From contig JAGCJX010000025.1 in NCBI GenBank assembly GCA_017647795.1, forward strand, positions 1 through 64,000: DNA of 64,000 nt, given 5' to 3'. The translations under genes and the position numbers were made by a program. Position 1 is the first letter of the stretch. The number at the start of each line of letters is the position of its first letter. The notes beneath the pieces were generated by a model that did no database searches, was not told the origin of the DNA, and was given only the letters and a program-made list of their open reading frames with translations. The DNA comes from Bacteroidales bacterium. GTDB lineage: Bacteria; Bacteroidota; Bacteroidia; Bacteroidales; UBA932. This document shows, one piece after another, positions 51,157 to 53,256 of the stretch.

Positions 51157-51945
51157 ATGATTCCTAATAAAAAGTATAAAATTGGATTGGTACTCAGCGG
51201 CGGCGGTGCCAAAGGATTTGCCCACGCTGGAGTACTACAAGCCTTGGAGGAAGCAGGTATCCGTCCGGACATCATTGCGGGTACCAGTGCCGGATCCATT
51301 GTTGGCGCATTCTATGCGGCAGGGCTGTCTCCCAAACAAATCTGCGAGGAGTTTATCAAGCACGACAAAAAAGATTTCTTGAACCTCTCGGGCCTACGGC
51401 TCGGAGCGGGTATCTTCTCCCACAAAGACACCCTCAACTTCCTTCAGCATAGCCTTCCGGTGCAAAATTTTGAAGACCTGCAACTGCCCTTGCGCATCGT
51501 TGCTACGGATTTCGACAACGGCACCTACCACGTGTTTGACCAAGGAGAGTTAGCCCCGCGCATCATGGCCTCCTGCTGCGTCCCTATTTTCTTTGAACCG
51601 ATCGTGATCGACGGGGTGCACTACGTCGACGGAGGACTTTTCAAAAACTTTCCGGTTTCCGTCATCCGTGAGGAATGCGACTTCATCATCGGAGTAAACG
51701 TCAGTCCGCTCGTATCGGAATACAAAGACAACTTGAAATTCATTGCCGAACGCTCGTACCAATACATATCCAAAGCCAATACGGTGGACGACAAGGCGGC
51801 CTGCGACCTTCTCATTGAAGTGGAAGAAGCCTTGAAATACGGTATGTTCGACTTGGAAAATGCCCTGCAGATTTTCGAAATCGGCTACCAGGACATCATA
51901 CGCGACATCGACAACGGGACCATCGACCTGTCGCGCATGAAGTAG
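51157..51945 (+). CDS. Patatin-like phospholipase (RssA-like)
   Basis: A 262-residue Ser/Asp-dyad hydrolase without a signal peptide. Oxyanion loop LVLSGGGAKGFAHAGV, nucleophile elbow IAGTSAGSIVGAF, and catalytic Asp in YVDGGLFKNFPVSVIRE. This short form resembles cytosolic RssA/YchK-like proteins acting on phospholipids. ATG 51157 (MIPNKKYKIG) is chosen over an upstream in-frame start within the promoter region. Confidence 0.93.
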   Translation: MIPNKKYKIGLVLSGGGAKGFAHAGVLQALEEAGIRPDIIAGTSAGSIVGAFYAAGLSPKQICEEFIKHDKKDFLNLSGLRLGAGIFSHKDTLNFLQHSLPVQNFEDLQLPLRIVATDFDNGTYHVFDQGELAPRIMASCCVPIFFEPIVIDGVHYVDGGLFKNFPVSVIREECDFIIGVNVSPLVSEYKDNLKFIAERSYQYISKANTVDDKAACDLLIEVEEALKYGMFDLENALQIFEIGYQDIIRDIDNGTIDLSRMK

Positions 51946-51965
51946 TGGTGAAGGAAAAGAGCAAC

Positions 51966-52080
51966 GAGATGACGGAGGAGGACTCCGTTCGCTTTGCTCA
52001 CTCCGGCCCTCCCACCGCTACGCGGCGGGCCCCTCCCGCTATACGGGTCCGCGGGTGGACACGCCTCCTCCTGTCATCTC
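51966..52080. repeat. 115-bp nested inverted repeat
   Basis: The ends pair as GAGATGAC-GGAGGAGG with CCTCCTCC-TGTCATCTC, one base unpaired. Inside are smaller stems: CCGC-TAC-GCGG, CCCG-CTATA-CGGG, and CCACC with GGTGG. It would fold as a branched structure in DNA or RNA. It codes for nothing visible, is GC-rich, and lies between the patatin stop and the buk terminator. Candidates are a MITE/REP-like repeat or a structured RNA. The rest of 51946-52182 holds only the buk terminator. Confidence 0.7.
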
Positions 52081-52125
52081 ATTGCATCACCACCACTATT
52101 GCATTCGCGACGAGAAAAGTATAAA

Positions 52126-52159
52126 AAGAAAAAAGGGAACTGAAAAAAATCAGCTCCCT
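52126..52159 (-). terminator. Rho-independent terminator after buk
   Basis: On the minus strand AGGGAGCTGA pairs with TCAGTTCCCT (one G-T pair) around a T-rich loop, followed by a T-rich run. It ends the ackA-ptb-buk cluster. Confidence 0.85.
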
Positions 52160-52182
52160 TATTTATGATGGTATCGAATGGA

Positions 52183-53247
52183 CTAGTATTCTTTCGGAGT
52201 TTCTTGGCCATCCAAAACAGCTTGTGCATTGCCAGCCAAAGCAGCCATTTCATCTTCACCCGGGTAAACAAATACCGGAGCGATGAAACCTACGCGAGCT
52301 TTGATGTCTTCGCACAATTTCTTACCGTAAGCGATACCACCGGTAATCAGGATTGCATCTACCTTACCAGAAAGGACGGTAGCAGCAGCACCGATGTATT
52401 TGGCCACGTTGTAAACGTAAGCTTGGGTAAAGAAGATTGCTTCAGGATCACCTGCTTCTTCACGTTTTTCAACTTCGAGGAAGGAGTTGGTGCCCATCAA
52501 AGCAACCAAACCACCTTTACCAGCAATCATAGCTTTGATGTCTGCCAAGGTGTATTTACCAGAGAAGCAAGCTTTTGCCAATGCAAAGGCAGGCAATGTA
52601 CCAGAACGTTCCGGGCTGAAGGGACCTTCACCGTTCAAGGCGTTGTTCACATCAATGACGCGACCGCCGCAGTGCGTACCTACAGAAACACCACCACCCA
52701 TGTGGACAACGATGAGGTTCAAATCTTCGTAAGCCTTTTGTTGTTCACGAGCAAATTGTTTTGCAATGGCTTTTTGGTTCAATGCGTGGAAAATGGAAAG
52801 TCTCGGGAATTCGGGGTGACCGGAAACACGGGCTACATCATCCAATTCATCCACCACAACCGGGTCTGCAATGTATGCTTTGCAACCGGCTTCTTTGGCC
52901 AGGGCATCTGCAATGATACCACCCAAGTTGCTGGCGTGTTCTCCGTATTGTGCAGAACGCAAGTCAGCCATCATGGCTTCGTTCACTTCGTACACACCGG
53001 AGGGAATCGGACGCAAAAGACCACCGCGACCTACCACAGCAGCCAAATCCGATACTTCAATTTGATTTTCCTTCAAAGCAGCCAAGATGGTTCCTTTGCG
53101 GAAATCATATTGTTCGATGACAGATGCATAAGGTGCCAACTCTTCGTTAGAGTGACGCAAGGTCTTGGTAAACACTTCTTTTCCACTTTCAAAGATGGAA
53201 ATTTTGGTAGAAGTGGATCCCGGGTTGATGGCAAGAATGTATCTCAT
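52183..53247 (-). CDS. buk: Butyrate kinase
   Basis: A 354-residue ASKHA-fold kinase that converts butyryl-phosphate and ADP to butyrate and ATP. Signatures are ILAINPGSTSTKISIFE, VVGRGGLLRPIPSGVYEV, LIVVHMGGGVSVGTHCGGRV and ILITGGIAYGKKL. ATG 53247 is chosen over a TTG nine bases upstream. It follows ptb on the same strand. Confidence 0.95.
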   Translation of the reverse strand: MRYILAINPGSTSTKISIFESGKEVFTKTLRHSNEELAPYASVIEQYDFRKGTILAALKENQIEVSDLAAVVGRGGLLRPIPSGVYEVNEAMMADLRSAQYGEHASNLGGIIADALAKEAGCKAYIADPVVVDELDDVARVSGHPEFPRLSIFHALNQKAIAKQFAREQQKAYEDLNLIVVHMGGGVSVGTHCGGRVIDVNNALNGEGPFSPERSGTLPAFALAKACFSGKYTLADIKAMIAGKGGLVALMGTNSFLEVEKREEAGDPEAIFFTQAYVYNVAKYIGAAATVLSGKVDAILITGGIAYGKKLCEDIKARVGFIAPVFVYPGEDEMAALAGNAQAVLDGQETPKEY

Positions 53248-53256
53248 CTTTGTCAA

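Follow-up and report, generated by a model that had tools for sequence, protein, structure and literature searches.

Mobile intragenic palindromes are best known from Rickettsia. The Rickettsia palindromic elements (RPEs) are palindromes about 100-150 bp long and dispersed in the genome, in part located in frame in unrelated genes; according to the available part of a review, they encode one conserved peptide (PMC10969869), and the available text of another paper says that they lose their repeat identity over time (PMC6649704). The GTAG/CGTC REPs (20-40 bp, one 5-13 bp stem, a tag at one end) are described, in the sections available of their source, as high-copy palindromes found mostly after genes, with some copies within genes (uvrA, uvrD), probably in linkers, and with CGTC repeats reported in some Bacteroidetes (PMC3733652). 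Two further systems are known in which arms change together. In yeast, template switching is described, in the excerpted part of the study, to homogenise the arms of inverted repeats and to invert their spacer, the repeats being native and short, with spacers of a few bases, and located within coding sequence (PMC8604942). Nematomorpha mitochondria carry palindromes inside genes, perfect repeats whose arms are seemingly actively maintained, and the available portion of that account mentions no shared inserted core (PMC6649704).

Here we analyse a branched inverted repeat in the window, that is, the whole stretch of 64,000 nucleotides of Bacteroidales DNA under study. We conclude that it probably (probability about 0.6) belongs to a non-autonomous, RPE/REP-like family of mobile palindromes of Bacteroidales, in which template switching during replication remodels the arms and the orientation. 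Like the RPEs, it is a member of a dispersed palindromic repeat family of that size class, and copies in relatives are inserted in frame in unrelated genes (the window copy itself follows a stop codon). It departs from the RPEs, with which it was compared by description, in its phylum, in its arms, which differ between loci and stay complementary, and in its presence in both orientations in one gene among sister species (L258/L265, L125/L349), so that no single conserved peptide is encoded. Compared with the single 20-40 bp hairpin of the GTAG/CGTC REPs, it is longer (over 115 bp), branched and provided with long variable arms; GTAG- or CGTC-like letters can be seen by eye at the core ends of several copies of genus g22, not at those of the window copy. 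In contrast to the yeast repeats, it is inserted, repeated and has a spacer of about 100 bases, and it carries the shared inserted core that is not mentioned for the Nematomorpha palindromes. In its behaviour the element comes closest to RPEs and intragenic REPs; since it lacks a tested feature of each, we file it as neither. No description of it was found in the open-licence PMC literature, and the PMC papers that contain GGGCCCCTCCC seem unrelated, judging by their titles.

Results

The window copy is a branched palindrome between convergent genes

The preliminary description, made from the sequence alone, had proposed a 115-bp branched inverted repeat at 51966-52080, and this structure is real: over 51950-52100 the predicted fold reaches -64.7 kcal/mol on the plus strand (z -4.56) and -72.8 kcal/mol on the minus strand (z -4.08), and none of 200 shuffles equalled this on either strand. 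The outer arms of 16-17 bases that it had reported correspond to GAGATGACGGAGGAGG and CCTCCTCCTGTCATCTC, which pair with one bulge, and arm pairing extends slightly further on both sides (Table 1), a gap separating the GCAA/TTGC pairing from the outermost TAGTGGTG/CACCACTA pairing. The stop codon of the patatin-like gene (TAG, 51943-51945) sits within TAGTGGTG. Three smaller stems had been claimed between the arms; two of them, hairpins B and C, fit a covarying model of the core, and the third, upstream, is regular in many relatives and irregular in the window copy.

Table 1. Coordinates of the element and of its neighbours in the window
Feature	Position	Strand	Remarks and basis
Outermost left arm TAGTGGTG	51943..51950	+	pairs with 52091-52098; sequence; short, may be chance
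Outermost right arm CACCACTA	52091..52098	+	sequence; short, may be chance
Left outer arm GCAA	51961..51964	+	pairs with TTGC 52082-52085; fold, sequence
Right outer arm TTGC	52082..52085	+	sequence
Left inner arm GAGATGACGGAGGAGG	51966..51981	+	largely common to other own-genome copies
Right inner arm CCTCCTCCTGTCATCTC	52064..52080	+	pairs with the left inner arm
Conserved core	52004..52062	+	match to covariance model R1, 65.2 bits; window copy among the 15 training cores of R1
Core hairpin B (CCC-A-CCGC / GCGG-C-GGG)	52011..52029	+	covariation in relatives, alignment
Core hairpin C (CC-T-CCCGC / GCGGG-T-GG)	52032..52058	+	covariation in relatives, alignment
Patatin-like phospholipase gene, neighbour	51157..51945	+	ends at the element; ORF, Pfam
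Terminator-like hairpin, neighbour	about 52126..52165	-	separate from the element, on the buk side; sequence
Acetokinase-family gene (buk of the preliminary description), neighbour	52183..53256	-	convergent; Pfam Acetate_kinase

The copy is intergenic, between convergent genes, directly after the patatin stop codon. As had been noted, no T run adjoins its arms, so that this feature of an intrinsic terminator is missing from the window copy, and the terminator-like hairpin on the buk side is indeed distinct from it. The other genome of the genus (G001) has the equivalent gene pair without the element, at a divergence too great to show the ends of an insertion. The window copy most likely has no host function; nothing that was found links it to one. 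No Rfam family matched the element over threshold: a gathering scan of the window returned one tRNA elsewhere, and a local scan two sub-threshold matches, both outside the element. A patatin gene at locus L020 was considered as a neighbour shared with the window and rejected, its ORFs showing chance likeness.

A slowly changing core is dispersed in the genome and across the family

The repeated unit consists of a slowly changing core around GGGCCCCTCCC, set within long arms. Covariance analysis, which had been suggested as a check, was run on alignment A3 (15 short-type cores from 7 genomes), from which model R1 was also built: 94.6% of 204 paired cells pair, and 20 paired cells are changed on both sides versus 0 on one side. 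Sliding the partners lowers core pairing to 40-53%. None of 500 shuffles reached the observed cells paired, cells with double changes or covariation score; the number of pairs with double changes and the number of pair types were equalled in 146/500 and 268/500 shuffles, respectively, and are therefore not special.

A search for further copies had also been proposed, and the feature is not single-copy. BLAST with 126 bases finds 7 places in the own genome, including the window's and a fragment with which a contig begins, and R1 finds 7 cores, one of which (contig C10) is additional to BLAST. Two convergent genes (Pfam: TPP enzyme/4Fe-4S and formiminotransferase) flank this copy, which carries its own arms (arm score 26). 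Four of the own-genome cores are near contig ends, and since this genome is 86% complete, further copies may be missing from it. The L005 copy is flanked by 51-bp tandem arrays (L005:163-293 and 515-832), and L002, L003, L004 and L006 share array-like sequence with L005. Own-genome copies other than the window's are found in or beside 51-bp tandem arrays, several of them at contig ends, and the arrays may break the assembly. Beside the array, an 86-bp tandem repeat (L005:915-1078, 1.9 copies) resembles, by its look, a duplicated tRNA gene.

Relatives share the element as well. R1 matches occur in 234/398 genomes of the family and in 12/25 genera, with up to 14 candidates scored per genome, so that copy numbers are at least those counted; the lack of conservation in relatives that would have spoken against a repeat was thus not found. 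In an order-wide scan of 294 genomes (up to 18 candidates scored per genome), 6 had matches, 2 of them in the family (G000, G006) and 4 in other families, three strong (G550, G689, G715) and one weak (G623, E 7e-4). The exact core pattern was matched 61 times in six genomes and its reversal never; G230, which is among these six, contributed no pattern match despite an R1 match. The named relatives are Bacteroidales assemblies, including Candidatus Coprenecus.

We also observed the core motif outside the order, in intergenic palindromes of alphaproteobacteria (L096-L146: Caulobacter, Sphingomonas, Azospirillum and other records). Selection of these loci was by pattern, and the likeness may reflect descent or convergence; 41 R1 matches were seen in 26 of them, some not used to pick the loci, often with a second match nearby in opposite orientation and mostly lacking long matching arms. 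In IMG/VR, GC-rich contigs that are similar to each other (L217, L222, L224, L232, L243, L244, L256) carry the core pattern 4-6 times on the same strand, mostly at intervals of some 1-2.5 kb; in the viral control, the reversed pattern was slightly shorter than the forward one.

Related copies sit in frame within housekeeping genes

Copies in relatives sit in frame within housekeeping genes. Among 161 copies, 31 fall inside open frames that span 200 codons or more and leave 60 or more on either side; some of these frames are spurious opposite strands. Pfam matched 16 of 20 chosen frames, and two of the four unmatched ones (L258, L104) are the other strand of a matched gene. According to these matches, the insert lies between or within domains in an E2 acyltransferase (L125), RibF (L298), a tyrosine recombinase (L258), UvrD (L306), PmbA/TldD (L263), a radical SAM protein with a sub-threshold HemN_C match (L296), a Radical_SAM_N protein (L308) and an HI0933-like protein (L149). 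It directly precedes DsbD_TM (L272), follows domain III of DnaX in two species (L124, L104) as well as MazG (L142), falls in the second half of UvrA (L119), precedes HHH motifs (L280), lies upstream of a GntP permease, possibly before the true start (L161), and separates GreA_GreB from NUDIX matches (L011). In this last case a single open frame (L011:663-2153) joins GreA_GreB and NUDIX via the element, perhaps as a gene fusion.

Orthologous sites can hold either orientation or none

For orthologous sites, the flanks of eight sites were searched in 200 genomes of genus g22 (2 candidates scored per genome) and 20 regions were fetched. Five sites, read by eye, show filled, empty, remnant and composite or nested states: L333, L338, L339, L341, L346 and L348 are empty and L343 is also without the core, L334 and L347 hold remnants, and L307 (about 1980-2180) and L352, both at the dsbD site, are composite or nested: there, an older unit contains a second one or has been partly replaced by it. 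Measured against the reference copy, each of the 25 length differences is a multiple of 3 (L336 being left out as its right flank was not found). Flank identity in the empty-site comparisons is about 74-90%, and no target duplication, as would be expected of a MITE, was identified in the filled/empty pairs, which are too diverged to show one.

Both orientations occur at 8 of the 14 orthologous sites with at least two filled species (L040, L055, L113, L125, L258, L272 through the composite L352, L298 and L290/L306), and a single one at L062, L095, L102, L104, L117 and L274; the count leaves out L009/L326 (two elements) and L005/L007 (one stretch). The clearest case, and the only clean inversion, is L040/L314, where flanks 87.8% identical surround elements in opposite orientation whose arms differ at 2/39 and 2/43 bases: the arms travel with the core, and hence the whole unit was inverted. 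At the other both-orientation sites, the arms are too diverged to tell an inversion from a second, opposite insertion (the comparison lacks L258/L335, L272/L340, L125/L350 and, for an indel, L298). Orthologue alignments also place L301 in the opposite orientation. The element is dispersed, and a given orthologous site may carry it one way round, carry it the other way round, or lack it.

These orientations were observed between species, as would also be seen with a site-specific inverton, in which a dedicated recombinase flips the DNA between inverted repeats and so switches expression or protein linkers. Against an inverton, the arms have no common sequence across loci, so that no common recombinase site is apparent, and several host genes are housekeeping genes; we regard it as the least probable of the readings weighed here.

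Arms change fast and in concert

Arms differ from locus to locus, yet remain complementary within each copy. In a comparison with arms swapped between copies, 148 of 161 copies taken as Bacteroidales scored above the 95th percentile of the swaps (median 22 vs 10), the corresponding figure being 23 among 87 copies set aside. This set was drawn from 248 copies, those 87 being alphaproteobacterial by list or above a GC of 0.635 (GC-rich Bacteroidales may be included), and it omits copies with less than 100 bases of flank, several own-genome copies among them, as well as 2x44 and 5 viral loci. Both this control and the arm identities below cover fetched copies, chosen by core similarity. Median arm identity is 0.86 where core identity is at least 0.97 (39 copy pairs, six genomes) and 0.64-0.68 where it is below 0.97 (random control: median 0.55, 95% 0.64): near-identical cores share arms, and diverged cores mostly do not. 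In G075, seven copies at different loci have nearly identical arms.

Double, compensatory changes also occur within groups of related copies, and in both sets of orthologous coding copies they exceed the single ones. Alignment A4 (genus g16) has them in 11/38 pairs (14 double, 4 single and 16 broken cells) and A5, from the same genus, in 9/47 pairs (12 double, 6 single and 35 broken cells, the latter mostly from two diverged rows). Counts are small in the orthologue sets, which hold 4 sequences for dsbD (8/49 pairs; 12 double, 4 single and 5 broken cells) and 3 for E2 (10/40 pairs; 10 double, 2 single and 5 broken cells). Altogether, the arms belong to the unit and change faster than the core, but in concert.

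That arms differ between loci, and that extra complementarity extends into the flanks in some copies, would also be expected if the element entered pre-existing hairpins, or duplicated its target inverted upon insertion, and thereby acquired locus-specific arms. The empty sites L338 and L339 speak against this, with 13 bases between the flanks and neither arm present, in comparisons where the flanks are about 74-90% identical, and so do the arms common to several G075 loci. Because of these arm-free empty sites and shared arms, we gave up this origin of the arms, which we consider unlikely.

The preliminary description had offered a structured RNA as an alternative to a mobile repeat. Selection on such an RNA, or on an mRNA 3' element acting in stability or termination, would explain the compensatory changes, and the strong fold, the covariation and the position of the window copy directly after a stop codon agree with it. 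This reading is nevertheless distinctly improbable, and it is not supported by the comparisons, given the two orientations at orthologous sites, the coding positions in relatives, the absence of one-sided changes from the core set and the lack of a T run and of an Rfam match over threshold. In 148 copies with an arm score of at least 15, moreover, 5731 of 6818 aligned positions are Watson-Crick, 153 are G-T and 188 A-C, in an alignment that rewards Watson-Crick pairs and with copies not oriented by transcription; this lack of a wobble (G-U) excess among arm mismatches fits pairing at the DNA level. The mobile palindromic repeat that had also been suggested is instead borne out by the dispersed copies, the filled and empty orthologous sites and the near-identical arms at several loci of G075.

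Y1 transposase genes do not cleanly follow the element

A partner search among Y1 genes identified no transposase that moves the element. Y1 transposase genes are present in 20/21 element-rich vs 10/15 element-free genomes. The first figure, and the resemblance of the hairpin clusters to REP dimers, would suit a RAYT-mobilised REP/BIME of a known family, which we hold to be very unlikely: the presence of Y1 genes in element-free genomes leaves no clean co-occurrence, the unit is far longer than 20-40 bp, and the Y1-like gene of the own genome is flanked by other, 212-bp direct repeats, not by the element as expected of a RAYT and its REPs. This RAYT-like gene (L033:587-2100, contig C22, weak Pfam match) lies between direct repeats that are 92% alike and unlike the element, perhaps a REP family of its own.

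Discussion

Our preferred reading, a mobile palindrome reshaped by template switching, involves a mechanism that would act on DNA. The hairpin would make the polymerase switch template between the arms; such a switch would copy one arm onto the other and could also invert the sequence between them. An excess of double over single changes together with inversion of the body is the expected product of template switching between arms, to judge from the available part of the yeast study (PMC8604942). The compensatory changes could alternatively stem from selection acting on a hairpin, be it in DNA or in RNA. Some arm pairs are broken and not compensated (16 cells in A4, 35 in A5 and 5 in each of the two orthologue sets).

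We tentatively propose, as a possibility that we rate below even odds, a class of mobile elements fit for intragenic life: a compact structured core would travel with its own self-complementary arms, these being continually rewritten in concert by template switching while the body turns around at its site; housekeeping proteins across the family may thereby continually gain, invert and lose linker peptides. If this is true, and if the core motif of the alphaproteobacterial palindromes is the same, the family would span phyla. This element family offers many copies in hundreds of sequenced species, and shared sites occur filled, empty, as remnants, nested or flipped. Two questions thereby become testable: whether compensatory changes in long stems arise through stepwise selection or through a single template-switching step, and how small repeats can enter important genes and leave them intact.
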